A DNA stretch of 24,225 bases from a virus. Below are positions 619 through 24,225 of this stretch, in pieces. Location of the stretch: positions 1-24,225 of IMG/VR virus record IMGVR_UViG_3300048110_000157. One strand, 5' to 3'. A model generated the notes under the pieces. The model saw only the letters and a list, made by a program, of their open reading frames with translations, had not been told where the DNA came from and did no database searches. The translations under genes were made by a program, and so were the position numbers. Each line of letters begins with the position of its first letter. Position 1 is the first letter of the stretch.

Positions 619-1058
619 GAAGACTAGAGGCTGATGATATAAAAGACCTCAACCTTATGAAGCATTATCGCATTATAAGAAAATGGGCTTGTAGAAACAA
701 CGATCTAAACGATGCAGATCTAGAGTTATTAATTTACTTAGACTGTATAGACATGTTTAGAAAAAAAGACTTTCAAGATGGAAGTTACTCTTACAGTTGG
801 GACAATCGTCGGTGGAATAGATTATTAAAAGAAGGCTGGATAGTTGTGTGGCGTCATAGAAATAGAACCACACAGAAATACCATATATATAAAACATCTA
901 TTAAATGTAAGCAGCTTATAAAGCGTGTTTACAGAATGATGCTAGGTAAAGAAGATATACCTACGTCTGAATCTAATAGCATTATACGTGGTAATACATA
1001 TACAGACAAAGTTTTAACAAAAGCAATACATAACGTCAATAAAGACAAATACAGATAA
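615..1058 (+). CDS. Putative winged-helix DNA-binding protein
   Basis: A 147-residue, basic protein that I do not recognise by name. The order of elements resembles a MarR-like winged helix. There is a helical start (HYRIIRKWACRNNDL), a helix LNDADLELLIYLDCI at about 31-45, and SWDNRRWNRLLKEGWIVVWR at about 61-80. That last stretch looks like a recognition helix running into a wing strand. KYHIYKTSIKCKQLIKRVYRMMLGKEDIP (about 88-116) resembles the wing return and long C-terminal helix of MarR proteins. The start codon overlaps the groES stop as ATGA, so the two are translationally coupled. A role in transcription control, or in binding phage DNA, is inference from fold only. The last 30 residues are polar and probably disordered. 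Confidence 0.5.
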   Translation: MRRLEADDIKDLNLMKHYRIIRKWACRNNDLNDADLELLIYLDCIDMFRKKDFQDGSYSYSWDNRRWNRLLKEGWIVVWRHRNRTTQKYHIYKTSIKCKQLIKRVYRMMLGKEDIPTSESNSIIRGNTYTDKVLTKAIHNVNKDKYR

Positions 1059-1059
1059 A

Positions 1060-1458
1060 ATGAAAGGTAAACAATACGATTACAAAGAGGCGTATAATAA
1101 AAATCTAACGCCTAAAGCTAGATTACATTATCTAGAAAATGCTAGGCATGATCAGGACGCTCCTACGAATATGTGTTCACCAAATCATTATGATTCACCT
1201 GCCAAGCAGGTTGGTATAGTAGATCCACTAGCTCAACAGCAAATGGTTCAACCAATGACTAACGTAACCCCAGCTGGTTCTAGTTTAGTAAACCCATTTT
1301 CACCTCAAGCTCAAGCTAATGCTCAAGGTGTTTTTGGAACAACTCCAATGATGCAAAACGCAGTTGGCGCACCAGCTATGTTTAAAGATCAAACTGGTGA
1401 TGGTAAAATTACACAGGCAGATGTTATAAAAGCTAGAGTAGAAGGATATAAAAAATAA
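1060..1458 (+). CDS. Small Pro/Gln/Asn-rich protein with one EF-hand-like loop
   Basis: A 132-residue protein of unknown role. The N-terminus (KGKQYDYKEAYNKNLTPKARLHYLENARHD) is probably helical. The middle (about 50-105) is low-complexity, rich in Pro, Gln, Ala, Asn and Met, and looks disordered. Near the C-terminus DQTGDGKITQAD (110-121) matches a canonical 12-residue EF-hand or dockerin-type calcium loop: Asp at positions 1, 5 and 12, Gly at 6, Ile at 8. A short helix VIKARVEGYKK follows. A single loop could bind calcium only weakly or after dimerising. There is one base between the preceding stop and this ATG, so it belongs to the same operon. A virion role is possible but not shown by sequence. 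Confidence 0.72.
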   Translation: MKGKQYDYKEAYNKNLTPKARLHYLENARHDQDAPTNMCSPNHYDSPAKQVGIVDPLAQQQMVQPMTNVTPAGSSLVNPFSPQAQANAQGVFGTTPMMQNAVGAPAMFKDQTGDGKITQADVIKARVEGYKK

Positions 1459-1462
1459 AGAT

Positions 1463-1663
1463 ATGAAAGATATTAAACAACTAAAAGCTGACCTAGCAGG
1501 TCAAGTAGGTGAGAATGCTATATGGGACGGTCCATTAAGCAAAGAAGGTTTTCCAATGGGTAAAGGTTCTAGTTCAGGTAAAAATGGATTAGAAGTGTCT
1601 AAAGCGCCGTTTGAGTGTGGACACGGAACACCGATTACTTCACGAGCTAAAGCTTTTAAATAA
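1463..1663 (+). CDS. Small hypothetical protein
   Basis: A 66-residue protein not recognised as any family. It has an amphipathic start (MKDIKQLKADLAGQVG), a Gly/Ser/Lys-rich middle (FPMGKGSSSGKNG) and a basic end with KAPFECGHGTPITSRAKAFK. The single CGHG could contact metal but lacks partner ligands. It sits 4 bases after the previous gene, and its TAA shares a base with the next ATG (TAATG), so it is in a translationally coupled run. The coding call rests on packing, direction and frame continuity rather than homology. Confidence 0.6.
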   Translation: MKDIKQLKADLAGQVGENAIWDGPLSKEGFPMGKGSSSGKNGLEVSKAPFECGHGTPITSRAKAFK

Positions 1664-2049
1664 TGAGTTCTCCATTTGCATTTAAGTTTTTAGGTAAAAA
1701 ACCTTTTACTAAAAAAACAATAAACCCAGAGGCTGGTGGTAAAGACTATGAGGCTATGGGTGATGCCGCTAGAAAAAAAGAGCAAAAGCTTAGCGCTGAA
1801 ACCGGCGGTGTTGATTACGAAGCTAAATTAAAAGTTCAAAAAGAAATGTCACCACTTAAAGGCGCTTATTCTTCTGGAGCTGGTGGTTCTGTTTATGTAT
1901 CTACAGCTGGCGCTTTTCAAAATCTTCAAGATAAAATATCTGCAGGTATACAAACCAATATAGCAAACGAAAAGTTCAAAAACTTCTCATGTCCAGAAGG
2001 GCAGCGAAAAACCATTGATAAAAATGGAAACCTTACTTGCTCAACATAA
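1663..2049 (+). CDS. Small hypothetical protein with an internal 23-residue repeat
   Basis: A 128-residue protein of unknown function. A duplicated motif is visible: PEAGGKDYEA at 22-31 and AETGGVDYEA at 45-54, each followed by a charged, Lys-rich segment. The two copies use different codons, so the repeat is old or selected at protein level. KEMSPLKGAY (60-69) is a short basic motif, followed by a Gly/Ser/Ala-rich stretch. The C-terminus carries two cysteines (about 110 and 126) around EGQRKTIDKNGNLT, which could form a small disulphide or metal-stabilised hairpin. The start is coupled to the previous stop (TAATG). A minor virion or assembly role is only a guess from context. Confidence 0.62.
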   Translation: MSSPFAFKFLGKKPFTKKTINPEAGGKDYEAMGDAARKKEQKLSAETGGVDYEAKLKVQKEMSPLKGAYSSGAGGSVYVSTAGAFQNLQDKISAGIQTNIANEKFKNFSCPEGQRKTIDKNGNLTCST

Positions 2050-2051
2050 CA

Positions 2052-2360
2052 ATGGCATTTAAAATAACTCCACCTTACTCAATGGATAATACTCCAATTT
2101 ACAACGTAAACATGGAAGATGGTGTTATGGGTAAAGCTAATAAAAATGGTACTATAATTCTAAATAAAGATTTAGACGCTTCGCAGTGTGATAAAGTTAT
2201 CGCGCACGAGAAAGTTCATATAGACCAAATGAAACGTGGAGACCTTGATTACGACGATAAATACGTATATTGGAAAGGTAAAAAATATTCAAGAGCACAA
2301 ATGAAAGAAGGTGCTAAAAACTTGCCTTGGGAAGCTGAGGCTTATAGAAAAGTAAAGTAA
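2052..2360 (+). CDS. Minimal HExxH zincin-like protein (putative metallopeptidase)
   Basis: I start this at the ATG two bases after the preceding stop (MAFKITPPYS, 102 residues). An in-frame ATG at 2037 would add five residues inside the previous gene and is less likely. The zinc-peptidase motif HEKVH is at 52-56, in the helix KVIAHEKVHIDQM. Downstream, LPWEAEAY has Glu94 and Glu96, either of which could be the third zinc ligand, giving a gluzincin-like set of two His and one Glu. A strand-like IILNKDL precedes the helix, as in zincins where the edge strand lies over the active site. At about 100 residues it is near the smallest size for a zincin domain. The substrate is unknown: candidates are a virion precursor, host cell wall peptide or host protein. 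Catalysis is inferred from motifs only. Confidence 0.68.
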   Translation: MAFKITPPYSMDNTPIYNVNMEDGVMGKANKNGTIILNKDLDASQCDKVIAHEKVHIDQMKRGDLDYDDKYVYWKGKKYSRAQMKEGAKNLPWEAEAYRKVK

Positions 2361-2390
2361 CAAATAATATAAACAAGTAATAATAAGAAA

Positions 2391-2753
2391 ATGAACGGAC
2401 CATTTAAAATGAAGCCTGGAAGAGGTAATATGCCTAAAACAGGTAGAGATATTCCAACGAATATGGTAAATCCTAATACAAAGCAAACTGTTTCAGAGAA
2501 AACTGCCGCTGCTAGTAGAGCAAAAGGCAAAATGGCTTCTGTTAAAGCGGACATAAAAGCTGGAAAACATAAACCAGGTAAAAAGGTAAAAGTTACGACA
2601 ACCTCCGGTAGAGAAATAGAATTGGACACAAGAAGCTCATCATATAAAGCTTTGCAGCAAAGAAAAGCAAAAAAAGAAAACAAACCAAGCAAGGAGTTTA
2701 AAAATGTCGCTATTTCAAAAGACAAGACTATTGCAATGGAAGTTAGAGGGTAA
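2391..2753 (+). CDS. Highly basic small hypothetical protein
   Basis: A 120-residue, strongly Lys-rich protein of unknown family. It starts MNGPFKMKPGRGNMPKTGRDIP, a basic Gly/Pro/Met pattern, then has Ala/Lys-rich segments and the strand-like KKVKVTTTSGREIELD (about 63-78). The C-terminus is basic (KALQQRKAKKENKPSKEF) and ends AISKDKTIAMEVRG. The net positive charge suggests nucleic-acid binding or internal capsid packing, but this is inference. It lies 30 bases after the zincin-like gene, with an A-rich leader (AATAATAAGAAAATG) and no Shine-Dalgarno. The open reading frame on the opposite strand here is a shadow of its A-rich codons. Confidence 0.6.
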   Translation: MNGPFKMKPGRGNMPKTGRDIPTNMVNPNTKQTVSEKTAAASRAKGKMASVKADIKAGKHKPGKKVKVTTTSGREIELDTRSSSYKALQQRKAKKENKPSKEFKNVAISKDKTIAMEVRG

Positions 2754-2755
2754 TA

Positions 2756-3157
2756 ATGAAAAAGATTTGGCAATGGCTTACGGGTTCCGTCATAAAAGAA
2801 GTTGGCGAGGTTTTAGATAATCTTACAACAACTAAAGAGGAAAAACTAGAAGCACAACGTCTTATTACAGAAATTCTTGAGAAAGCTGACAAGGAGGCTC
2901 AAGAGCAAGTTACAAAAAGATGGGAGTCAGATATGCAGTCTGATTCTTTTTTGTCTAAAAATATTCGCCCAATGGTACTTATATACTTAACGGTTATATT
3001 TACTGTATGTGCGTTTTTTGATGGAAACATCGGAGAATTTAAAATAGCAGAAGAGTACATCCCAATATTCCAAACTCTTCTTGTTACAGTTTATGGAGCT
3101 TACTTTGTAGGTAGAACTTGGGAAAAAGCAAAATCAATAACAAATAACAAAAATTAA
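2756..3157 (+). CDS. Phage holin, 3TM family
   Basis: A 133-residue membrane protein of the phage holin 3TM type, which makes holes in the inner membrane at the end of infection. Order of elements: an N-terminal amphipathic helix (IWQWLTGSVIKEVGEVLDNL, 4-23), a charged coil (25-60), then RWESDMQSDSFLSKNIRPMV, the family's typical approach to the membrane. Next come a transmembrane segment LIYLTVIFTVCAFF (about 73-88), a short loop with Asp/Gly/Glu, and a second segment IPIFQTLLVTVYGAYFVG (about 102-119) that ends in GRTWEK. The order W-D-S-LS-NIRP then TM-loop-TM-GR is the family hallmark. The start is two bases after the previous stop. No endolysin gene is recognisable next to it. Confidence 0.82.
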   Translation: MKKIWQWLTGSVIKEVGEVLDNLTTTKEEKLEAQRLITEILEKADKEAQEQVTKRWESDMQSDSFLSKNIRPMVLIYLTVIFTVCAFFDGNIGEFKIAEEYIPIFQTLLVTVYGAYFVGRTWEKAKSITNNKN

Positions 3158-3167
3158 ATTTAATCAA

Positions 3168-3416
3168 ATGGCAAAAATTAAAGAAGAACAGTTAAAAGAA
3201 ATCGTTGAATTACAAGGTAAACTTGGTCAAATACTTTCTAACATCGGAGTTTTAGAATCACAAAAACACGGTTTACTACACGATGTGGCTGCAGCAAACA
3301 AAGAATTAGAAGACTTTAAAGCAAAACTAGAAGAAGAGTATGGAGCTATTTCTATAGATCTTTCAACTGGTGAGTATACTGAAGTTAAAGAAGAAGAGGC
3401 TAAAACAGAGGAATAA
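3168..3416 (+). CDS. Small coiled-coil protein
   Basis: An 82-residue acidic protein. Residues 4-58 form a clear heptad pattern (LKEIVELQGKLGQILSNIGVLESQ then LLHDVAAANKELEDFKAKLEEEYG) and should be a long coiled coil, perhaps a helical hairpin around the Gly at 36. The end is Glu-rich. It follows the holin after 10 bases (leader TTTAATCAAATG) and its stop shares a base with the next ATG. The position next to a holin makes a spanin-like or lysis accessory role conceivable, but there is no signal peptide, lipobox or membrane anchor, so I do not call it that. A structural or assembly role is equally possible. Confidence 0.65.
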   Translation: MAKIKEEQLKEIVELQGKLGQILSNIGVLESQKHGLLHDVAAANKELEDFKAKLEEEYGAISIDLSTGEYTEVKEEEAKTEE

Positions 3417-3643
3417 TGGATTCAGTCATTAGAAAAATCAGTATTGGATCTGATTACAAAAATGACGCCATGCACTATTCTGTAGGCCAACAGGTTTACG
3501 GAGGTCACGAGATAGCTTATATTTTATTTAACGAAAAAGATTCGTCATATAACATACATATTAAAAAAAATAACGAGGTTTTACCTTGGAAAAAGTTTAA
3601 TAAAAATATGGCGGTATCTATAGAGTATGATTTAGAGTATTAA
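3416..3643 (+). CDS. Small hypothetical protein
   Basis: A 75-residue protein, probably a compact beta-rich fold. Strands suggested by the sequence are VIRKISIGSD, HEIAYILFN, YNIHIKKN and AVSIEYDLEY, with MHYSVGQQVYGG between the first two. Its role is unknown, with no catalytic motif or membrane segment. It is coupled to the genes on both sides by single-base TAATG overlaps, so its amount is probably tied to that of the coiled-coil protein before it and the tandem-GroES-like protein after it. Confidence 0.62.
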   Translation: MDSVIRKISIGSDYKNDAMHYSVGQQVYGGHEIAYILFNEKDSSYNIHIKKNNEVLPWKKFNKNMAVSIEYDLEY

Positions 3644-4248
3644 TGAATTCTTTATATGACTTTATAGTAAAGCCAGTTGGAGACAAATATAGTAATACAA
3701 TTAAAGTTGGTGATAAAGACTTAGTTGTTAATACTAAAATTGAAAACTGGAAATTTGTAAACAGAATAGCAGAGGTAGTTCAAGTGCCTTTAGCTTTTAA
3801 ATCTGTTATTAGCAAAGGTGATGAAGTTGTAATACATCAAAATGTATTTAGAACTTTTTATGATATGAGAGGCGAAAAGAAAAAGAGTAGGTCGTTTTTA
3901 AAAGACGATCTACATCTTTGCGCCCTTGACCAAATATATCTTTGTAAAAACAATGGTGTTTGGCGTACTTTAAACGATAGATGTTTTATTTCACCTATAA
4001 AAGAAAAAGACAATCTAAAAGGCGATAAAGAACGCAGCCTTGTTGGTATATTAAAATATAGTAATAGCTCGCTAGAAGCGCTAGGAATAAACCCAGGAGA
4101 TATTGTAGGCTTCAAGCCTAATGGCGAATGGGAATTTTTAGTTGATGGTGAGCGTCTTTATTGTATGAAATCTAATGATATTGTAATTAAGTATGAACGT
4201 AAAGGAGACGAAGAAAAATATAATCCAAGCTGGGCGCAGAGCGGTTGA
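3643..4248 (+). CDS. Tandem GroES-like (double Cpn10 fold) protein, putative
   Basis: A 201-residue protein in which both halves can be aligned by eye to GroES. First half (about 1-105): YDFIVKPVGDKY matches the first GroES strand (HDRVIVKR), KDLVVNTK the mobile loop, FVNRIAEVVQVP the RGEVLAVG strand, ISKGDEVVIHQNVFR the VKVGDIVIFNDGYG segment, and DDLHLCALDQIYLCK the closing EEVLIMSESDILAIV segment. Second half (about 106-190): NDRCFISPIKEKD repeats the first strand. RSLVGILKYS, INPGDIVGFKPNGEWEF and ERLYCMKSNDIVIKY repeat the rest in order. This is the architecture of the double co-chaperonin Cpn20 of plastids. Assignment is by pattern, not a search. A plain structural role cannot be excluded. 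Its 3' end overlaps the next gene by 56 bases. Confidence 0.62.
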   Translation: MNSLYDFIVKPVGDKYSNTIKVGDKDLVVNTKIENWKFVNRIAEVVQVPLAFKSVISKGDEVVIHQNVFRTFYDMRGEKKKSRSFLKDDLHLCALDQIYLCKNNGVWRTLNDRCFISPIKEKDNLKGDKERSLVGILKYSNSSLEALGINPGDIVGFKPNGEWEFLVDGERLYCMKSNDIVIKYERKGDEEKYNPSWAQSG

Positions 4249-4468
4249 AGAGCTAATTAAAGTAGCTAAAGAACCTATTGTAGATTCAGATGATGATATC
4301 TCTGCAGACAGACTTAAAAACGCTGCAGCTACAAAGAAACTCGCTATATTCGATGCTTTTGAAATATTAACGAGAATAGAAAACGAGCAAGAGCTGCTAG
4401 AAGATAAACCTAAAGAAGTTAAAAAAGAAAAAACTTTTAGAGGGTTTGCAGAAGGGAGGTCTAAATAA
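4193..4468 (+). CDS. terS: Putative small terminase subunit
   Basis: A 91-residue, mostly helical protein directly before the large terminase gene and coupled to it by a TAATG overlap. Helices are suggested at IIQAGRRAVEELIKVAK (about 10-26) and at DRLKNAAATKKLAIFDAFEILTRIENEQELLED (about 40-72), followed by a Lys/Arg-rich tail. The size is at the lower limit for a small terminase and no clear helix-turn-helix is visible, so the call rests on position. The ATG at 4193 lies inside the previous gene. An AAAGGAG at 4201-4207 sits just after it, so a later start near 4220 (ATA) is possible, though I keep the ATG. Confidence 0.45.
   Translation: MNVKETKKNIIQAGRRAVEELIKVAKEPIVDSDDDISADRLKNAAATKKLAIFDAFEILTRIENEQELLEDKPKEVKKEKTFRGFAEGRSK
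4454..4459 (+). promoter_or_regulatory. Strong Shine-Dalgarno-like site for the terminase gene
   Basis: GGGAGG lies 8 bases before the terminase ATG at 4468. It stands out because nearly all other starts in the window have A/T-rich leaders without such a site. It also encodes part of the upstream protein, so it could be chance. Confidence 0.4.
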
Positions 4469-6678
4469 TGTACGAACAAACTTTATACAAGGTACTAGAT
4501 GACTATATAAAACCACATACTATAGCTAAAATGAATAAGGCTAAAAAGTGGGAGTATGGTTACAACGAAGACTATGATCTTATTATCATTAGTAAAACTG
4601 GTGAGATAGGTGAAATATACGAAATACAAAATCTTAGAATAGCCTTACCTAAAGCTAAGAACGTAAAAAAATTTGAAGGTAATAAGTGGCAATATACAGA
4701 ATATCCTAAAGAACTTAAAAAAATAAAGTCTGTGTTCGATTGGGAGGAATACCCAGTAGACTTTAAGGAAAAATGGTATGATTACATCGATAGTGAATTT
4801 AATAAAAGAGAACAAGGGTTTTGGTTCTATAATAAGAGTGTGGCTACTTACGTTACTGGCTCTCATTATATGTACTTGCAGTGGAGCAAAATTGACGTTG
4901 GGCAGCCAGACTTTAGGGAATCAAACAGATTATTCTTTATATTCTGGGAGGCTTGTAAAGCCGACGCACGATCTTATGGAATGTGTTATCTTAAAAACAG
5001 ACGTTCCGGATTTTCTTTTATGTCTTCAGCAGAAACCGTTAACGTGGCGACAATTACGTCAGATGCACGGTACGGTATCTTGTCTAAGTCTGGCCCCGAT
5101 GCTAAGAAAATGTTCACAGACAAGGTTGTACCAATATCAGTCAACTACCCGTTCTTTTTCAAACCAATACAGGACGGTATGGACAGGCCAAAGACAGAAC
5201 TTGCCTATAGAGTCCCAGCCACCAAGTACACCAGGCGTAAGCTTGAAACCAACGAAAAGCTTCAAGAGCTTGACGGTCTCGACACAACGATCGACTGGAA
5301 AAACACGGGGGACAACTCCTACGACGGGGAGAAACTAAAGCTACTAGTCCACGACGAAAGTGGTAAGTGGGAAAGACCTAATAATATATTAAATAACTGG
5401 CGAGTTACAAAAACTTGTTTAAGATTAGGTAGTAGAATTATTGGTAGATGCATGATGGGAAGTACATCAAACGCGCACGATAAAGGAGGTAAAAACTTTA
5501 AAAAACTTTATGATGACTCAGATGTTACCCAAAGAAACGCCAATGGACAGACTCGCAGCGGATTATATTCTTTGTTCATACCTATGGAATGGAACTACGA
5601 GGGATACATTGACGCTTATGGGTTACCTGTATTCGACACACCAAGTAAACCGGTTGAAGGACCTCAAGGTGAAAAGATAAAAATAGGTGTAATAGAATAC
5701 TGGGAGAACGAAGTAGAAGGTTTAAAGCAAGATCAAGATGGTCTTAATGAATTCTACAGACAGTTTCCTCGTACAGAAAAGCATGCTTTTAGAGATGAAA
5801 CAAAACAATCTTTGTTTAATCTAACTAAAATATACGAGCAAATAGATTTTAATGAAGACATGCGTAACTCTATAAATGTTACAAAAGGTAGTTTTCAATG
5901 GGAAAACGGTGAGCAAGACAGTAGAGTTGTGTTTGCCCCAAATAAAAATGGTAGGTTTTTAGTATCTTGGATACCACCTTTGCATTTGCAAAATAAAAAA
6001 TATAGTAAAAACGGTAGGTTTTACCCTGGCAATGAACATATAGGTGCGTTTGGATGTGACCCTTATGATATTTCAGGTACGGTAGATAAAAGAGGTTCTA
6101 ACGGATCTTTACATGGCTTAACTAAGTTTTCAATGGAAGACGCGCCGCCAAATCATTTTTTCTTAGAATATATAGCAAGACCACAAACTGCTGAGATATT
6201 TTTTGAAGATGTCTTGATGGCTTGTGCTTTTTACGGTATGCCGATACTTGCTGAAAATAATAAACCAAGACTTTTATATTACTTTAAAAAAAGAGGTTAT
6301 AGAGGTTTTGCAATGAATAGACCAGATAGAAGTAGAAACAAACTATCTGTAACAGAAAGAGAGATAGGTGGAATACCAAACTCTAGTGAAGACATTAAAC
6401 AAGCACACGCCGCGGCTATAGAATCTTACATAGAAAACTTTGTTGGATTAAAAGAAACTGGCTACGGTGATATGTACTTTCAAAGAACGCTTGAAGATTG
6501 GGCTAAGTTTAACATTAATAACAGAACATCGCATGATGCTTCTATTAGCTCTGGTTTAGCACTAATGGCTTGTAACAAACATAGGTATACACCTATAAAC
6601 AAAAGAAAAACGGAACCTGTTGACATAGGTATCAAAAGATACGACAACAGTGGATATACATCAAAAATAATAAGTTAA
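4468..6678 (+). CDS. terL: Terminase large subunit (DNA-packaging ATPase and nuclease)
   Basis: This 736-residue protein is the motor that pumps phage DNA into the procapsid through the portal and cuts it. ATPase half: KNRRSGFS (176-183) is a degenerate Walker A of the RRSG type seen in some Bacteroidota phage terminases. LKLLVHDESGKW (290-301) is Walker B with catalytic Asp296-Glu297, and MMGSTSN (329-335) fits the coupling motif. Nuclease half (RNase H-like): GAFGCDPYD gives Asp531, ILAENNKP gives Glu596, and SHDASISSGLALMA gives Asp690, the three expected metal ligands. All key residues are present. It starts in TAATG coupling with the putative small subunit and ends directly before the portal ATG. 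Bases 5041-5340, between Walker A and B, are far richer in GC than the rest. Confidence 0.9.
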   Translation: MYEQTLYKVLDDYIKPHTIAKMNKAKKWEYGYNEDYDLIIISKTGEIGEIYEIQNLRIALPKAKNVKKFEGNKWQYTEYPKELKKIKSVFDWEEYPVDFKEKWYDYIDSEFNKREQGFWFYNKSVATYVTGSHYMYLQWSKIDVGQPDFRESNRLFFIFWEACKADARSYGMCYLKNRRSGFSFMSSAETVNVATITSDARYGILSKSGPDAKKMFTDKVVPISVNYPFFFKPIQDGMDRPKTELAYRVPATKYTRRKLETNEKLQELDGLDTTIDWKNTGDNSYDGEKLKLLVHDESGKWERPNNILNNWRVTKTCLRLGSRIIGRCMMGSTSNAHDKGGKNFKKLYDDSDVTQRNANGQTRSGLYSLFIPMEWNYEGYIDAYGLPVFDTPSKPVEGPQGEKIKIGVIEYWENEVEGLKQDQDGLNEFYRQFPRTEKHAFRDETKQSLFNLTKIYEQIDFNEDMRNSINVTKGSFQWENGEQDSRVVFAPNKNGRFLVSWIPPLHLQNKKYSKNGRFYPGNEHIGAFGCDPYDISGTVDKRGSNGSLHGLTKFSMEDAPPNHFFLEYIARPQTAEIFFEDVLMACAFYGMPILAENNKPRLLYYFKKRGYRGFAMNRPDRSRNKLSVTEREIGGIPNSSEDIKQAHAAAIESYIENFVGLKETGYGDMYFQRTLEDWAKFNINNRTSHDASISSGLALMACNKHRYTPINKRKTEPVDIGIKRYDNSGYTSKIIS
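5041..5340 (+). other. GC-rich patch inside the terminase gene
   Basis: By hand count G+C is 144 of 300 bases (48%), and 50% over 5161-5340. Blocks elsewhere in the same gene fall far lower, for example 25% at 6241-6300. Codons shift to C- or G-ending forms (GTC, ACC, CTC, AAG, AGG, CGG). The patch encodes residues 192-291, exactly between Walker A and Walker B, and the reading frame stays open. Confidence 0.8.
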
Positions 6679-14736: not shown

Positions 14737-17700
14737 ATGGCTCAAGTAAAAAATAGTTTTCTTAAGTCCAAGATGAATAAAGATCTTGACGACAGACTTA
14801 TACCTAATGGTGAATACAGAGACGCTGTTAATATAACCGTAAATCAATCTGATGGTGAAGATGTAGGTACAGCGCAGACAATATTAGGTAATACTGAAGT
14901 CATAGATTACAACACAGTTACAGGTCAATCTGGATTAAAAACTATAGGTATATTAAACCAAGACTCTACAAACACTATATTTGCTTTTGTTACAAATAAC
15001 AGTGTTAGTAATTATAACAAGCAAGCATACAACGCAATAATATCTTGGCAAACAGATTTAAATAATACTACTGCTAAAATTATAGTTCAAGGTAATTGGT
15101 TAAATTTTTCTACATTAAACCCAATAACTGGTATTAATCTTTTAGAAGATTTATTATTTTTTACTGACAACAGAAATCAACCTAGAAAAGTAAACATATC
15201 TAAGCAAGAGGGTTATTACACTACTGAAGATCAAATATCTGTAGCTAAATACTACCCATATCAAGCTATAGAGCTTTTTCAGCCAAGCGCTATTAGTGGC
15301 GCAGCTGTGGTTACTACAACAACAACCGCGGCTTCTACAACTAATATCATAGCTGTAGCTAGCAACTCAAACATAGATCAGGGTCAAGGGGTTTTAGGCA
15401 CTGGTATACCTTTAAATGTTTTTGTTATTGCTATAGATTCGCTGAACATAACGCTGAGTCAAGCTGTTAACGTTGTTAATGGGGCTTCTATAACTTTTTG
15501 TTTGGCAGAGTCATCTATGCAGGATGCTATTTCTGAGTATTTACCACCTCAAGGTCGAGGCACAGTCACAGGCGTTCCTCCGTCTACTACTCAATTTAAT
15601 TTATCACAATATAGTGGATATGTTAACCCAGTAGGTAACGTTTCTGGCGCAGCCGGATTTAGAGTTTATATAAAACAATTAGATGGCTCTTATTCCATTA
15701 CACCTGCTACAGTAACTGTATTTAACAAAGACTCTGCTAATGGCGGATTTTTAATTACTACAGACGTAGCTTCCGGAGTTACTAATACGGACGAAGTTCT
15801 TTTAGCGATACCAAACCCTTACTACGATTCAAACTTCGCTGCTACAGCCAACGTAGATTACTTAGAAGATAAATTTGTAAGATTTTCATATAGATTTAAG
15901 TTTGACGATGGAGAATACTCGTTAATAGCTCCCTTTACTCAAGCGTGCTTTATACCTAAACAAGATGGTTATTTTTTAGACGCCAGCTTTAGCGACGATG
16001 AAGCTTCAACGGATGTTGATAAAAATATAAGCGACTTTGCTAGAGCTTATCAAAGCACTGAGGTTAGCTTTATGGAAAATAAAGTTAACAAGATATTGTT
16101 AAATATACCACTACCTTACAAAGCAGGTGAGTTAGCAAATAGTTTAAAAGTAGAAGAATTAGAAATATTATATAAAGAATCTGATGAAATAGCTATAAAA
16201 GTCGTTGAATCATTACCTCTTAGTGATAATTTTTCAGGAGATGATTATTATTTTCAATACGAATATGGATCTAAATCTCCTTACAAATCTTTACCTGAAA
16301 AAGAAAATACTAGAGTTTACGATAAAGTTCCTGTAAAAGCACAGTCTCAAGAAATAATAAGCAATAGGGTTGTTTATGGCAACTATCAAGATAAGCATAC
16401 ACCACCTAACTTTTTAGATTATAATATATCGGCTAGAGAAAAAGCTTCCTTTGGCCCAGGTATAAATGGTTTAGGTTCTAGTAAAATAGAGTATCCTAAT
16501 GCTAACTTAAAGCAAAATAGAAATTATGAAGTAGGAATTGTTCTGTCTGATAGATTTGGTAGACAATCTACAGTCATACTATCAGAGTCGGAGTTAAATC
16601 AATTACCATCTTACCTAGCGTCGACAATATATTCTTCATATAGAACAAAACAAGATCAAGCTACGAATCCAGAGCTTTTTGATGGTGACTCTTTAAAAGT
16701 TACATTTAACAACTTTATACCTTCTTCATACCCTAATAGTCCTGGTTTGTATGAAGGTAACAAAGACTTAAGCAGTTACAATCCCCTTGGTTGGTACACG
16801 TTTAAAATTGTAGTAAAACAAACAGAGCAAGATTATTACAACGCTTACGTTGCTCCTATAATGCAAGGTTATCCTACAGATAACAATAAAGAAAAGTTTG
16901 ATACATCTCATATATCGCTATTCGGCGATAACATAAACAAAGTGCCTAGGGATTTGTCAGAGCTAGGGCCAACCCAAAAACAGTTTAGAAGTAGTGTTAA
17001 ATTATGGCCTAGAGTTGCTGGTGATGAAAACACAAACTCTCCTTTTTATAACGCTATTCAATTTTTTCCAGAAAGAACTGGAGATATAGCTTCAGCTATT
17101 GGTACGTTAGATGATTTGTTTGAATTACCAGACGCACCAGGTAACGTTATAGGTTCGTTTGGCATTAGCGGTGTAGAATCAAATACTACAAATACTTTAA
17201 CATTTAGTTTAGGAGCTAGCCCAAGTCCAGCATTACAAGGAATATTTTTAGGAATATCAGAAGGAGATGAAATTAGAGGTATTAATTTTGGCTATAAAGA
17301 CACAATAATAACAGACATAGTTACACCGCAAACTCCGCCTTTGTCTGGTGTTTTTAAATTGAGTGTTTCAAACCCACCCCAAGGATCACCTAACGGTAAC
17401 AATATTAGTTTTCATAGGTCTGGTGGTAAAAACTATTTTTACAACCAAGAGTCAGATCCATTGATAGCTAGAATTAGCACGACAAAGCAAGCTGGCGTTG
17501 AAATACCAGCAGAATATCCTGATAGTGGCGGCGCTTTAAATATATATGAAGTAGAAGCTCAAGAGTCTTTACTTGACATATATTGGGAGACATCAACTAG
17601 CGGGTTGATTAGTGAGCTTAACCAAGCAATAGCTGAAGGCCCTGGTGGTTTAATTTACGATAGAGTTCAAGGCTGGACACCTATAATTACAGAAGCAACG

Positions 17701-18708
17701 GATCAAAATGACAATCCTATTGTAAGCAATTTTAGAGCAGTGTTGTTAAATGGTACTCAAATAACCCCAGTCGCAGACGCAACAGCTACTATAGTAAGTG
17801 TTTACGAGCAAGGATCGCCTTCTAACACTAATAATCTTTTAGGAAACCCTTATAAAGACGCTTTTGCAGTAACTTCTTTAGGTACAGGTTATTTTAAATT
17901 AGATTTAAGTATTGACCCTAGTGAGCTTGTTTATACACAAGGCGTAAATACGTTGACTTTTGAAGTACTATTTAACCACACTAATGCTGACGCGCCTTTT
18001 ACGGCATATTTAGACATACCTGTTAACAACGTTGCTCCAGCAATTGGCAACAAGCCTAGTAACGATGCTGTTTTAATTACTTTTAAAACTCAAGCCGTGT
18101 ACAACGCTTTTACAGGTGTTAATGGAAGTGATACTTCTAGTTTAAATCAAGAAGGTTTAGTTTGGAGTTTTGGACCAAACGTCAACACTGCATTATTTTC
18201 AATAGACTCTTCAACAGGTGTTGTAACAGCTAATCAACTAGAGACGCCTAATGGATCTTACACTATAGACGTTATATTAACAGATGCTGGTGGGCTTCAA
18301 GATTTATATAGTTTTACAGTTACATATAATAGAGCCGCTACCATAGTTTGGAGTCCAAACGGAGATCAAATAGTAGATGTAAACAACGTTGATAACCCTG
18401 GAGGTGGAAATATAACCATAACTCAAACAGGTACAGTGACAATTACTAATGGAGATTTTAACATAAAACTAAGAGGACAGCACCAAGGATCTAATACATC
18501 AGCTTGGTCTACTAGTTTTAATGCATCTGTAGGTTCAACAAACTATAGCGAACCTTTATTTAATCAAACAGCGCCATCTATTATTGAGTCTTCTAATACT
18601 TTGTTTAGTAGCGGTGTTTACAATTTTTCAATAACGGTAGCAACAACCTCTTTACCAACAGGCGCTTTAGCTCAGTCGCTAGGTAGTTTAATAGCGACAG
18701 TCGCGTAG
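14737..18708 (+). CDS. Large tail stabilisation-like protein with cadherin-like module
   Basis: A 1323-residue tail protein and the largest complete gene here. The N-terminus has SKMNKDLDDRLIPNGEYRDAVNITV and GTAQTILGNTEV, the signature seen in P22 gp10-like packaged-DNA stabilisation proteins of podoviruses. Next are strand-rich, propeller-like repeats. A Thr-rich linker at about 191-201 leads into a small beta module (STTNIIAVASNSNIDQGQGV to about 254). VVYGNYQDKHTPPNFLDY and VGIVLSDRFGRQSTVILS lie near 545-612, and LLDIYWETSTSGLISELN near 945. Residues about 1098-1210 form a cadherin-like domain (LFSIDSSTGVVTANQ; YTIDVILTDAGGLQDLYSFTVTY), followed by a final beta-sandwich. It probably plugs the tail and forms the surface for fibres or receptor contact. 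It ends in tandem stops TAG TAA, in frame with the next gene. Confidence 0.65.
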   Translation: MAQVKNSFLKSKMNKDLDDRLIPNGEYRDAVNITVNQSDGEDVGTAQTILGNTEVIDYNTVTGQSGLKTIGILNQDSTNTIFAFVTNNSVSNYNKQAYNAIISWQTDLNNTTAKIIVQGNWLNFSTLNPITGINLLEDLLFFTDNRNQPRKVNISKQEGYYTTEDQISVAKYYPYQAIELFQPSAISGAAVVTTTTTAASTTNIIAVASNSNIDQGQGVLGTGIPLNVFVIAIDSLNITLSQAVNVVNGASITFCLAESSMQDAISEYLPPQGRGTVTGVPPSTTQFNLSQYSGYVNPVGNVSGAAGFRVYIKQLDGSYSITPATVTVFNKDSANGGFLITTDVASGVTNTDEVLLAIPNPYYDSNFAATANVDYLEDKFVRFSYRFKFDDGEYSLIAPFTQACFIPKQDGYFLDASFSDDEASTDVDKNISDFARAYQSTEVSFMENKVNKILLNIPLPYKAGELANSLKVEELEILYKESDEIAIKVVESLPLSDNFSGDDYYFQYEYGSKSPYKSLPEKENTRVYDKVPVKAQSQEIISNRVVYGNYQDKHTPPNFLDYNISAREKASFGPGINGLGSSKIEYPNANLKQNRNYEVGIVLSDRFGRQSTVILSESELNQLPSYLASTIYSSYRTKQDQATNPELFDGDSLKVTFNNFIPSSYPNSPGLYEGNKDLSSYNPLGWYTFKIVVKQTEQDYYNAYVAPIMQGYPTDNNKEKFDTSHISLFGDNINKVPRDLSELGPTQKQFRSSVKLWPRVAGDENTNSPFYNAIQFFPERTGDIASAIGTLDDLFELPDAPGNVIGSFGISGVESNTTNTLTFSLGASPSPALQGIFLGISEGDEIRGINFGYKDTIITDIVTPQTPPLSGVFKLSVSNPPQGSPNGNNISFHRSGGKNYFYNQESDPLIARISTTKQAGVEIPAEYPDSGGALNIYEVEAQESLLDIYWETSTSGLISELNQAIAEGPGGLIYDRVQGWTPIITEATDQNDNPIVSNFRAVLLNGTQITPVADATATIVSVYEQGSPSNTNNLLGNPYKDAFAVTSLGTGYFKLDLSIDPSELVYTQGVNTLTFEVLFNHTNADAPFTAYLDIPVNNVAPAIGNKPSNDAVLITFKTQAVYNAFTGVNGSDTSSLNQEGLVWSFGPNVNTALFSIDSSTGVVTANQLETPNGSYTIDVILTDAGGLQDLYSFTVTYNRAATIVWSPNGDQIVDVNNVDNPGGGNITITQTGTVTITNGDFNIKLRGQHQGSNTSAWSTSFNASVGSTNYSEPLFNQTAPSIIESSNTLFSSGVYNFSITVATTSLPTGALAQSLGSLIATVA

Positions 18709-18741: not shown

Positions 18742-20205
18742 ATGGCAGCTACAATAGAAGTTAAATATTTTAATAGTTTTCTGCTTAAAAACCAAGAAAG
18801 AACTACTGACACTGGTGTTATAGGTGGAGTTGTATGGAACGGGTCTTTTGGCATACCTCAACCTTTAGGCGGTTTTCAGCAGCAAGTAGTTACAGCTAAT
18901 GAGGTTTGGTATATAGAAGAAAGCAGAATTAGAGCTGGCTATAACAACACTTCTACGGATTACGGCGTAAGAGCTTATATAGTTGATGATAACCCAAAAC
19001 AGTCTACTAGGTTTAACTCTATGATATACTCAGGTATATTTAATTCTAGAACAGATATAAACCAAACTAATGTATTTAGCGTAGCTGATGATATAACTAA
19101 AAGTGTTGACCCTGCTAACGGCTCTATACAAAAACTTTACGCTGAAGATACTAATCTTATAATATTTCAAGAAAGTAAAGTATCAAGAGCATTGATAGAC
19201 AAAGATGCAATATACTCTGCTGAAGGCGGAGGAACTGTTACATCTTCTAATTTAGTTATAGGTGCTATACAGCCTTTTGGTGGTCAATACGGTATCGGGT
19301 TGCATCCTGAAAGCTTTGCTGTATATGGTTATAATAAATATTTTGTAGATTCTTACAAAAACACAGTGATGAGATTAGGTGCTGATGGCCTTAGTGAAAT
19401 ATCGTCTTACGGTATGAAAGCATTTTTTAGAAATGAAATATCTCAAATTGATTCACCAGTTTTTGGTAAAGGTGAAGCACAAGGTGGTTGGGATATACAC
19501 TCTAAAGAATATGTTTTATCTTTAAAAAAATCTAGCGATACAACGCAGTTTAAAACTTTAACGTTTGACGAAGGACCTAAAGGTTGGACTAGTTTTTATA
19601 GCTATAAGCCTGATCAAGTGTTTAGTGTTAGAAATAACTACTATACAGCTTTTAACGGTAAGATATTTAAACATCATGACTCTAACGCTAATTATAACGA
19701 CTTCTATGGAGTAGGACCTGTTTCTTCTTCTATAACTTTTGTATTTAATCCACAGGTTAGTAATGAAAAAATATTTAACACGGTTAACTACGAAGGTTCT
19801 AACGGTTGGAAAGTTGATTCTATAGTTTCAGATTCAACTGGTTTTATACCTGGTTATACTGGTACTTTCCCAGGTCAACCTGGTTTTGCATATGATACGT
19901 CAAATAGTATATACAGTTATGTTCAAGGCGCTTACGATTCTGCAACGCCGCCTAACACAGGTTTAGCAGCAGTTGTTCAACCAATATACAGAGCTGGATT
20001 CGATAGAAAAGAAAATAAATACTGCGCTAATATTGTAAATAGCTCTCAAGCATCTCAAGGCGAGATAATATTTGGTAGTAATATTTCTGGATTAAAAGGA
20101 TTTTTTACAACAATTACAATGTCTACGGACGCAGTGACAAACCCAGGTGGATACAAAGAAATTTTTGCAGTATCATCTGATTATACATTTTCAAATGGAT
20201 ATTAA
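18742..20205 (+). CDS. Tail protein, beta-propeller-like, companion of the stabilisation protein
   Basis: A 487-residue, strand-rich protein. ESRIRAGYNNTSTDYGVRAYI, LIYSGIFNSRTDINQTN-like text (MIYSGIFNSRTDINQTN here) and IQKLYAEDTNLIIFQESKVSRALI are followed by EGGGTVTSSNLVIGAIQPFGGQ and FAVYGYNKYFVDSYKNTVMRLG, a run typical of propeller blades in tail stabilisation proteins. No signal peptide or catalytic motif is visible. It starts 33 bases after the 1323-residue gene and in the same reading frame. I infer that the two were, or in relatives may be, one polypeptide separated here by a C-terminal adhesive module and stops. The start ATAATAAAAAAATG lacks a Shine-Dalgarno. Confidence 0.62.
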   Translation: MAATIEVKYFNSFLLKNQERTTDTGVIGGVVWNGSFGIPQPLGGFQQQVVTANEVWYIEESRIRAGYNNTSTDYGVRAYIVDDNPKQSTRFNSMIYSGIFNSRTDINQTNVFSVADDITKSVDPANGSIQKLYAEDTNLIIFQESKVSRALIDKDAIYSAEGGGTVTSSNLVIGAIQPFGGQYGIGLHPESFAVYGYNKYFVDSYKNTVMRLGADGLSEISSYGMKAFFRNEISQIDSPVFGKGEAQGGWDIHSKEYVLSLKKSSDTTQFKTLTFDEGPKGWTSFYSYKPDQVFSVRNNYYTAFNGKIFKHHDSNANYNDFYGVGPVSSSITFVFNPQVSNEKIFNTVNYEGSNGWKVDSIVSDSTGFIPGYTGTFPGQPGFAYDTSNSIYSYVQGAYDSATPPNTGLAAVVQPIYRAGFDRKENKYCANIVNSSQASQGEIIFGSNISGLKGFFTTITMSTDAVTNPGGYKEIFAVSSDYTFSNGY

Positions 20206-22013: not shown

Positions 22014-24225
22014 ATGAACGAATTAGAACTATACGTAGATTCTTTAGATCCATCGCTTTCTAATGAAGAAAAAGTTAGATTAGTTAAAAAGTGGAAAAAA
22101 GCTAATAAATGGGGTGAGCAAGAAGTTGAAGTTTCTGAAACTGTAGAGCTTGAAGAAGTAGATCTTGGTGCAGTAAAGAAAAAAGACGGTGTACCGGGTG
22201 CAGTTGCTCCGTCAATGGGACCTCAACAAGCACCAAAACCCGTTACGGAATTTGGTTTGGAAGATACTTTTTCGGTATCACCAGAACCTGAAATAACATA
22301 CAATATAGACGGTAAAGACGTAAGTAAAGACGAGTGGAAATCTTATTTAGATAAACAAGAAAAGAAAAGAGAAGCTGCTGAAATGGATTGGCTAGATAGG
22401 TTAGGTTTATCTTTTGAACTTGGTTCTATTGATTTAGGTAAAATGGCTGCTTCTATACCAGAAACATTATACGATATAGCTTCTATACCTCAAAACTTAG
22501 CCGCAGATCCAGATAGTTACCCTATAGCGCTAAGACCTTATATGGAAGCCTTGAAAGCTGAAGGATATTTAGATTTTGAAACATCTTCTAAAAGTTTTAA
22601 AGAAGAAGAAGGTTTATCAAATCCCATACTAGATTATTACGAGGAAGAAGCAAAAAAACTACAAAACGTAGTTGATATATATGATAATGAAAATTATGAT
22701 TCAAAAGGTATATACGAAAACTTTAAAAAAGGTAACTACAGTGATGGCTTTAAACTTTTAGCTCAAGGAATAACAAGAAGCGCGCCTGTAAGTTTAAGTA
22801 TGATGGCTGGTGGCGCTGTTACTACAACTGGTAAATTAGCTGCTGGATCAACTGTAGGTTTTGCTGGTCCAGAAATATCAGAAGAATTAACATCTAAACC
22901 TGGCCAATCAGAATTATTAAGCATAATTAACGGCTTAGGTATGGGTGCTGCAGAAGCTATTTGGGAGTCTGTTGGTACCTCTACTTTAGGTAAAGTATAT
23001 AAAGACATTATATCTAAAGAAGGTCTTGAAGCTGGTAATAAAATATTTAAAGAAGGGTTAATAGATATGTATCGAACTGCTTTAGTTAAATATGGTGCTC
23101 CAGTAGCTATGGTTGAAGGCGGTGTTCAAGAAGTAGGAACAAAAATCACACAAAACATGATAAAAGGTTTACCAACTTTTGAAGGTGTTAACGATGCTTT
23201 TATACAAGGCGTGGGAGGTAGTGGTCTTTATTCTTCACCTGTAAATATAGTAAAATCTAGAGCAGCGATAAAACAAGGTATAACTAACAACAAAATAAAT
23301 AAAGAACTAAAACAAACTGATTTTGACAAGGCTTCTCAAGCTTTTAACCCTGAATTTAAAACAACAGGTTTTGAAATAAAAGCCTCTCAAATACCTGGCT
23401 CTTTGCAGGTTATAGACGCGGAAGTTGACGTAGATTTAAGCAAAGGTGATATAACTCAAGAACAAGCTGATGGCATTAAGTTAAGAGCTAGAGAAGTTCA
23501 AGGCGCTACAAATCAATTAAAACCTCTTGGTGTTAGTATTGAAAATCAACCAGCAATAGTTGATTTAATGATTGAGCAAAAAAACCTAAAAAACACTATA
23601 AAACAAGTTGATAACACTAGTTTAACAAAAGCAGAATCTTCTAGGCTTACTGAAATAGACACGGAGCTTGGTGCTTTAATAACTAAAGATAAAGCAGCTA
23701 AAATAGATGTAGGTGCTAAAAAAATAGCAGAACAAATAGGAGTTGGATTTGAATCTTTTGACACGCAAGAAGACGTTGACTCAGCTATTGCTACGTTGCA
23801 AGAAGAAGGTGGAGAAATAGATACTAAAAACTCTGATAATTACGGTACGTTTGTAACTTTACCTGGAGATAGAAGTATTATTATACTTAACAAAGAAACA
23901 GCCACCGAGGACAATCAATTTGCAGTTGGAGAACACGAAACAGGTCATGCAGTGGTTTATGAAACTGTTAAAAATAAACCTGACGCGGCTATAGCTCTAG
24001 GTCAGTCTTTACTCAATGAACTAAGAACTAATAAAAACATAAATATAAAGCCAGAGTTTCAACAAAGATTAGATCAGTACGTAGAAGATGCTGATGTATC
24101 TGAAGCTGATACTATGGAAGAAGTAATGACACTTGCTAGTGAAGGTCTTAGTAATGGTACTATTGAAATAAATGAGACTATAGGTGTAAAACTTGGTAAT
24201 TATATACGCAGAGCACTTAGCGCTA
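22014..24225 (+). CDS. Large internal virion protein with HExxH zincin motif (3' end outside window)
   Basis: An open frame of at least 737 codons running off the window, starting 10 bases after the previous stop (leader AATTTAATTAAATG). The N-terminal 100 residues are acidic and charged. FELGSIDLGKMAASIPETLYDIAS (about 140-163) and RSAPVSLSMMAGGAVTTTGKLAAGSTVGFAGPEI (about 259-292) are Gly/Ala-rich and membrane-compatible, as in ejection proteins. Helical regions follow. At 641-645 is HETGH in GEHETGHAVVYE, preceded by a strand SIIILNKE (about 621-628), the edge-strand arrangement of zincins. Downstream EEVMTLASEGLSNG (702-715) offers Glu702 or Glu703 as the third zinc ligand. I infer a giant ejected protein carrying a metallopeptidase domain that may open a path through cell wall or cleave host protein. 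Confidence 0.72.
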   Translation, partial: MNELELYVDSLDPSLSNEEKVRLVKKWKKANKWGEQEVEVSETVELEEVDLGAVKKKDGVPGAVAPSMGPQQAPKPVTEFGLEDTFSVSPEPEITYNIDGKDVSKDEWKSYLDKQEKKREAAEMDWLDRLGLSFELGSIDLGKMAASIPETLYDIASIPQNLAADPDSYPIALRPYMEALKAEGYLDFETSSKSFKEEEGLSNPILDYYEEEAKKLQNVVDIYDNENYDSKGIYENFKKGNYSDGFKLLAQGITRSAPVSLSMMAGGAVTTTGKLAAGSTVGFAGPEISEELTSKPGQSELLSIINGLGMGAAEAIWESVGTSTLGKVYKDIISKEGLEAGNKIFKEGLIDMYRTALVKYGAPVAMVEGGVQEVGTKITQNMIKGLPTFEGVNDAFIQGVGGSGLYSSPVNIVKSRAAIKQGITNNKINKELKQTDFDKASQAFNPEFKTTGFEIKASQIPGSLQVIDAEVDVDLSKGDITQEQADGIKLRAREVQGATNQLKPLGVSIENQPAIVDLMIEQKNLKNTIKQVDNTSLTKAESSRLTEIDTELGALITKDKAAKIDVGAKKIAEQIGVGFESFDTQEDVDSAIATLQEEGGEIDTKNSDNYGTFVTLPGDRSIIILNKETATEDNQFAVGEHETGHAVVYETVKNKPDAAIALGQSLLNELRTNKNINIKPEFQQRLDQYVEDADVSEADTMEEVMTLASEGLSNGTIEINETIGVKLGNYIRRALSA

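Follow-up and report, generated by a model that had tools for sequence, protein, structure and literature searches.

A reduced zincin-like protein of 102 residues, fixed in one place of a marine podovirus lineage, and its possible role

The stretch of viral DNA analysed here, termed the window (24,225 nucleotides), encodes a 102-residue protein, P0001, which is a phage SprT-like/zincin homologue devoid of the N-terminal strand and helix of its longer relatives and fixed in one lineage and one genomic place. The explanation tentatively preferred for its function is limited proteolysis of the phage's own late or virion proteins by a reduced gluzincin-like zinc endopeptidase. The gene and its elements, in window positions, are as follows.

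2052 to 2360, + strand: zincin-like gene P0001, 102 residues, ATG start, supported by homologues and purifying selection
2052 to 2078, + strand: N-terminal start MAFK..., predicted to be disordered (mean pLDDT 46, residues 1-10)
2178 to 2237, + strand: predicted active-site helix, residues 43-62, with HEKVH at 52-56 and the conserved Q59 (AlphaFold2, alignment)
2325 to 2351, + strand: predicted second helix, residues 92-100, opening with P92 W93 E94 (AlphaFold2, alignment)

The initial annotation had described an HExxH protein of roughly 100 residues, and the open reading frame proved to be a real gene. Scanning IMG/VR with the window protein revealed at least 599 stretches encoding relatives, the best 80 of which display 75-100% identity to it and comprise 59 distinct sequences. 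Values of dN/dS, calculated for the window gene against each of eight loci out of the 80 recruited with the zincin, range from 0.05 to 0.21; thus, the protein sequence is under purifying selection. HEKVH spans residues 52-56 (positions 2205-2219) and PWEAEAY residues 92-98; the protein has no histidines besides H52 and H56. From the composition of 25 window proteins, HExxH is expected by chance 0.0004 times per 102 residues, and a chance motif is ruled out by its invariance: H52, E53 and H56 are retained in all 299 rows that cover them, of 302 in the profile alignment.

Relatives were collected from five large viral scans with zincin queries, a terminase-query scan, a cellular-genome scan and a tblastn search of phage genomes, while scans with homologues as queries were of small yield (one relative with pT24, none with Ochrobactrum). 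A profile search over all collected loci returned the 302 distinct homologous rows. The sets of 80, 251 and 105 loci, the second of which also drew on family phage matches, were recruited by zincin similarity and are biased toward presence and synteny. For the 251/252 loci, ORFs were chosen by a regular expression containing the motif; L152 is truncated, and the wrong ORF was taken at L249, which was later dropped.

Conservation also distinguishes the putative third zinc ligand, which the initial annotation had left as Glu94 or Glu96 beside His52 and His56. E94 is kept in 296 of 297 rows, and the sole exception, L363, is misaligned and carries KWE by direct reading; the column is gapped in four more rows, two of which (L340 and L357), read directly, end in KWE. 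W93 (296/297), P92 (291/297) and Q59 (293/300) are likewise conserved. In contrast, E96 is kept in just 243 of 297 rows, its substitutes including D, P, A and R, and was rejected as a ligand. Since E94 is near-invariant and E96 is not, the third ligand is probably E94. Homologues that would contradict this arrangement were sought among the eight of 302 rows without H-E-H-E in the profile alignment. Three (L334, L339 and L152) stop at a contig end, L340, L357 and L363 present HExxH and a KWE at the end when read directly, and the remaining two, L358 and L359, are relatives of L340. Among all the other rows, no homologue covering the sites was seen without the His or Glu residues. In L313, GYE replaces PWE and the Glu is retained.

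The AlphaFold2 model of the window protein (61-row alignment; mean pLDDT 78) comprises strands at residues 14-19, 27-29 and 35-38 before the active-site helix (block pLDDT values of 74-84) and at 65-67, 71-74 and 77-80 after it, and residues 35-38 correspond to the strand that had been predicted upstream of HEKVH. HExxH and E94 (codon 2331-2333, within the helix at 92-100) sit on two successive helices in the predicted model, as in gluzincins. The zincin core fold, as described in PMC5512222, comprises an N-terminal helix in addition to a three-stranded sheet placed ahead of the active-site helix; HExxH on a helix and a Glu on the next C-terminal helix are both found in the window model, which displays no helix before residue 43. 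The long relative L201 (153 residues; pLDDT 94.8) has a strand at 2-6 and a helix at 11-28 ahead of the sheet, in addition to a long C-terminal helix, and neither strand 2-6 nor helix 11-28 has a counterpart in the window model. As modelled, the window protein represents the usual zincin core in reduced form, without the N-terminal helix. The earlier view of a complete minimal gluzincin set in 102 residues is thus accurate as to the ligands and to the lack of any other domain matched in a Pfam scan of the protein, but not as to the core.

Structural similarity search of the PDB with Foldseek gave no significant match to the window model (best E about 0.6); rows 1, 2 and 4 were abylysin, jannalysin and selecase, all non-significant (E of 0.61, 0.74 and 0.95). 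Upon structural re-alignment the highest Z was obtained for PprI/IrrE (6.1; rmsd of 3.7 Å over 81 residues), with BepA at 4.5, abylysin at 4.2, Wss1 at 4.1 and selecase at 3.9, and 19 of the 25 rows shown are metallopeptidases, not all of them named as such in their titles. The Z of 6.1 proves little, because it lies below the 7-8 typical of this tool for models that have no clear match. Viral predicted structures contributed 10 matches at E ≤ 0.001, SprT-like by name in three cases. For L201, alignments were obtained with gluzincin aminopeptidases (ERAP1, PDB code 2yd0; Z of 9.5 and rmsd of 3.1 Å over 117 residues; others reach 10.6) and with Wss1 (5xbn; Z of 8.5, 2.8 Å over 104 residues). 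The non-peptidase YbeY family (1xm5; Z of 9.3) scores as high as gluzincins against it, and thus the fold alone leads only to a designation as zincin-like, while the conserved Glu points to a gluzincin. Foldseek with L201 returned nothing at E ≤ 0.001 (best E of 0.005, for TM1509), and its rows, listing YbeY, Wss1, astacin, bacterial toxin proteases and other zincins, are fold neighbours only. Sequence searches of solved structures likewise gave no significant match, selecase being the first, non-significant, sequence-profile row for one alignment.

At the sequence level, the best PHROGs of the window protein are 16532 (E 8e-12) and 10499 (E 7e-10), both without function. The sole peptidase row in Pfam is DUF6782, below threshold (E 5e-4), and neither SprT-like PF10263 nor ImmA/IrrE appears at E ≤ 1. 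Of 29 long relatives searched against Pfam at E 0.01, 11 match DUF6782, 10 SprT-like PF10263 and seven M91, with L201 scoring 25.8 bits against PF10263, just over the cut-off of 25.6. NCBIfam gave weak rows only for 61 members, three matching a type III effector family and one each matching four other families.

The closest known systems are the phage SprT-like/DUF6782-like metallopeptidases, which occur in Melnitz, Cr30, pT24, XacN1, Ochrobactrum OC and many metagenomic phages. They are homologous in sequence to the window protein and share with it HExxHxxQ followed by PWExxA, including E94; in contrast with the 102 residues found here, the five from named phages extend to 140-191 residues, and the window form lacks the additional N-terminal strand and helix, as well as the extended C-terminal helix, modelled for L201. 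Some of these genes are located near replication or lysin genes: a scan of neighbours, covering 122 of 136 ORFs at 35 of 38 loci, found a DnaB-type helicase for 6/122, a DNA ligase domain for 4/122 and a GH108 lysin for 3/122 (25 of 43 families listed), and the long relatives have no single genomic setting. The minigluzincins and selecase (abylysin 4jiu, jannalysin 4jix, selecase MJ1213) are likewise single-domain metallopeptidases of about 104-112 residues, but their matches to the window protein are non-significant (Foldseek E of 0.6-1, profile E of 0.67-1.1, Z of 2.5-4.2). They are archaeal cellular proteins, abylysin and jannalysin having been crystallised as zymogens, and they are not known to have a phage role. 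PprI/IrrE and ImmA, of 240-248 residues and with further domains, carry a HExxH...E zincin domain and cut repressors upon DNA damage; PprI/IrrE gives the highest Z for the window model. The zincin domains of polyvalent and virion proteins have the same ligand layout and, in PMC5512222, are proposed to process phage polypeptides; unlike the window form, they are embedded in multidomain proteins and their core has the N-terminal helix.

The window belongs to a lineage of marine podoviruses, and the isolates nearest to it have flavobacterial hosts. Its portal and capsid are, among the matches listed, 42-52% identical to those of ctfjg026 (MW202828), Maribacter phage Panino and the Flavobacterium elemo phages; Cellulophaga phages are also among those matches, and a crAss-type muzzle domain is present in related contigs. 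A marine member of the Bacteroidetes is the probable host. Six lineage contigs (L167-L172) were binned in Aliivibrio, Sphingobacteriales, Euryarchaeota, Bacteroidetes, Woesearchaeota and Alphaproteobacteria MAGs, a placement most likely due to mis-binning. The gene order comprises GroEL, GroES, a 147-aa gene, variable ORFs, the zincin, further variable ORFs, the holin, variable ORFs and fibre-like genes, and then 82- and 75-aa genes, a second GroES, the terminase and the portal. The window genes that frame the zincin are listed below.

3 to 374, + strand: GroEL, C-terminal portion, bordering the slot upstream; inferred from position and from related contigs (groeL lies in the same place in ctfjg026)
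358 to 618, + strand: small GroES-like gene, inferred from place and relatives
2391 to 2753, + strand: basic 120-aa ORF between zincin and holin, with only a sub-threshold Pfam row
2756 to 3157, + strand: 3-TM holin of the GTA-holin type (phrog_3427, E 4e-28; PF11351 at 23.1 bits, just under the cut-off of 24.8)
3643 to 4248, + strand: second GroES-like gene, downstream border of the slot (phrog_13932, E 4e-21)
4468 to 6678, + strand: terminase large subunit, inferred because it precedes the portal, in the same order as the annotated terminases of ctfjg026, Panino and elemo

The family-model scans covered window proteins other than GroEL, the small GroES, a 91-aa gene, the terminase and the portal. 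The arrangement of GroEL and the small GroES (1-618) with a larger second GroES-like gene (3643-4248) near the terminase recurs in the same order in related contigs; a 'chaperonin 10 kd subunit' follows groeL in ctfjg026, and GroES lies beside GroEL in elemo. The 120-aa ORF has no PHROG match at E ≤ 1, and tblastn with it fails in many related loci. A well-conserved 75-aa gene at 3416-3643 matches the N-terminal domain of argonaute below threshold (E 9e-4; 20.2 bits versus a cut-off of 27). Further downstream, the single virion-protein profile phrog_14478 (1474 positions) is represented by two ORFs, matching the start of ORF 14737-18708 and, at its positions 940-1186, ORF 18742-20205, an arrangement found by similarity also in G001 and G002. 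The giant virion protein (22014-24225), which runs off the window end, carries HETGH at 23934. As the giant proteins of G001 and G002 also hold HExxH (HELNH and HEGGH), a second zincin-like domain may be conserved in this protein.

Loci fetched with the zincin cannot show that it is universal, and contigs were therefore recruited with the terminase of L171. This unbiased set comprises 79 loci, L063, also returned, having been left out, and at least three of its contigs (L293, L300 and L350) recur in the first zincin-recruited set. In 23 of the 79, at least one gene is present on each side of the slot; the zincin was found in all 23 and a recognisable holin in 22. The zincin is thus a core gene of the lineage. 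Lineage genes also neighbour the zincin in every one of another 105 loci recruited with it, 97 of which have a holin match, and one contig, L058, holds two zincin copies (1341 and 2527). A tblastn of 50,697 phage records matched 10, none of them Cellulophaga or elemo phages, and a zincin profile search of ctfjg026, Panino and elemo, run without a positive control, gave no match; such a phage architecture can therefore be built without the zincin.

The slot at 1058-3168 and the related loci contain fast-changing small ORFs with common starts, such as MAFKIK and MAYKQSPGRMNMPKTGRG, as well as SP motifs. Starts of the form M[AGSP]?[FY][KR] were found in 49 of 516 slot ORFs versus 13 of 792 elsewhere (Fisher p 1e-10), and SP[FLMAY] within the first 45 residues in 137 of 516 versus 31 of 792 (Fisher p 7e-33); both p values are overstated, because related ORFs were thinned only by their first 25 residues and so are counted repeatedly. 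The 49 slot ORFs include the second zincin copy of L058, and the class counted as elsewhere holds a few slot genes and terminase fragments. A 366-aa ORF with no peptidase motif (L065, L178) opens MAFK...STPLFNIDP, near the MAFK...NTPIYNV of the zincin. The MAFK-like start could be a virion address, a translation-start preference or a trace of recombination. It is conceivable, if quite improbable, that the zincin is a dedicated protease of tagged small late proteins or of the giant virion protein: the MA[FY]K/SP slot ORFs would then be virion cargo with an N-terminal address, matured by the invariant enzyme. If true, a podovirus would possess a counterpart to the internal proteins and prohead protease of T4, with the peptidase reduced below the usual zincin core.

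The proximity of a holin raises the question of lysis. As proposed by the initial annotation, the zincin lies two genes before the holin, with the 120-aa ORF between them, and a holin on the same strand is found downstream in all 80 zincin-recruited loci. The suggestion that no endolysin is visible is correct within the window, which is a 24-kb fragment ending inside the giant virion protein, and fails beyond it. An M15 endolysin is encoded elsewhere in eight of 15 related records and an amidase in a ninth (G001), while the six records with no match, of 37-61 kb, may be incomplete. In G003 the giant virion protein is followed immediately by the endolysin; in G001 and G005 the endolysin is again downstream, separated from that protein by at least one ORF; and in the closely related G010 (portal 96%, terminase 91%) it is located 30 kb past the zincin, beyond the window end. 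In G004 (C1:12732-13033) the M15 endolysin match is in two pieces, which could reflect misassembly or a disrupted gene. A PF01510 search gave 0 of the 15 records, yet it missed the G001 amidase found by hmmscan and so is no evidence of absence. In the cultured relatives, the corresponding region holds a 'peptidase M15' (ctfjg026), an 'endolysin' (Panino) and a D-Ala-D-Ala carboxypeptidase (elemo). The zincin is therefore not the only cell-wall hydrolase candidate of these phages, and its identification as endolysin by default was rejected.

Comparison of pairwise identities over 91 loci gave a zincin-holin correlation of r 0.31, the same as that of the zincin with the 75-aa gene, while the zincin correlated with the second GroES at 0.53, with a 66-aa gene at 0.52 and with the terminase at 0.40. 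In 626 pairs of loci with close terminases, holins fall below 45% identity in 135 and zincins below 70% in 49. Zincin and holin are neighbours rather than partners, the holin being exchanged independently, and an obligate pair was rejected on these data. The hint that a peptidase replaces an absent endolysin is thus unsupported, since conventional endolysins occur elsewhere in nine records and zincin and holin do not travel together; the zincin is probably not what breaks open the host cell.

A more limited contribution to lysis, in which the protein is made with the holin and crosses or weakens the envelope, acting on proteins or on peptidoglycan cross-links beside a separate endolysin, is possible but unlikely. 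The holin found downstream in all 80 zincin-recruited and in 22 of 23 terminase-recruited loci, and the lysin in the corresponding region of ctfjg026, Panino and elemo, agree with such a role, as does Melnitz, where the zincin comes four genes after a GH108 lysin; PMC8235301 describes a phage-derived metzincin with a TIMP-like partner that sensitises Listeria to lysins. However, the endolysins encoded elsewhere (the six records that have no match may be fragments), the weak zincin-holin correlation and the greater divergence of the holins all argue against it. Moreover, the holin match begins at least 200 bp after the zincin in 60 of 80 loci (it lies within 40 bp in 14), and the slot also houses fibre-like genes. 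An ImmA/IrrE-like cleavage of host proteins, with a repressor or a protein of defence or DNA repair as the target, likewise seems unlikely. It would suit the top-ranking alignment of the window model with PprI/IrrE, and PMC7824862 proposes that the SprT-like peptidases of some jumbo phages cut host proteins; yet the zincin is universal, slow-evolving and located in the late region, unlike a patchy early gene, and no other domain was matched in it. The PF10263 matches of the long relatives, and the helicase and ligase genes near some of them, would be compatible with a SprT/Spartan-like clearance of proteins cross-linked to phage DNA ahead of packaging. This is nevertheless very improbable for the window protein, which has no SprT-like match at E ≤ 1 and no second domain and is encoded in the virion-gene half of the contigs, far from replication genes.

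Processing of late or virion proteins is ranked first because the zincin is universal in its lineage. PMC7824862 argues that conservation of a phage peptidase fits a role in maturation, and patchy occurrence an attack on the host, and by this reasoning a universal, slowly evolving gene in a late region suits self-processing. No head-maturation protease was identified among the 10 other window proteins scanned. The MAFK-like start found on other small slot proteins and the occurrence of separate endolysins also count in favour of processing. Against processing, replication genes rather than virion genes are found near the long relatives in other phages, the cultured relatives searched yielded no zincin, the window model has weak fold matches, the non-peptidase YbeY family rivals gluzincins in its score against L201, and the closeness of the zincin to the holin fits lysis. 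In the preferred explanation, the zincin would be a product of the late gene region, which serves virion and lysis functions, zinc would be held by H52, H56 and E94, and E53 would activate water. With less certainty, the protein might act in the cytoplasm, late in infection, and cleave late or virion proteins of the phage during assembly, rather than the cell wall as an endolysin.

Marine phage contigs commonly contain the zincin, which persists in a slot that exchanges most of its other ORFs, and thus it probably does something that these phages cannot spare. If active, it would represent a very small natural zinc-peptidase scaffold, in which the N-terminal backing helix of zincins would be dispensable or supplied by a partner or by a dimer.
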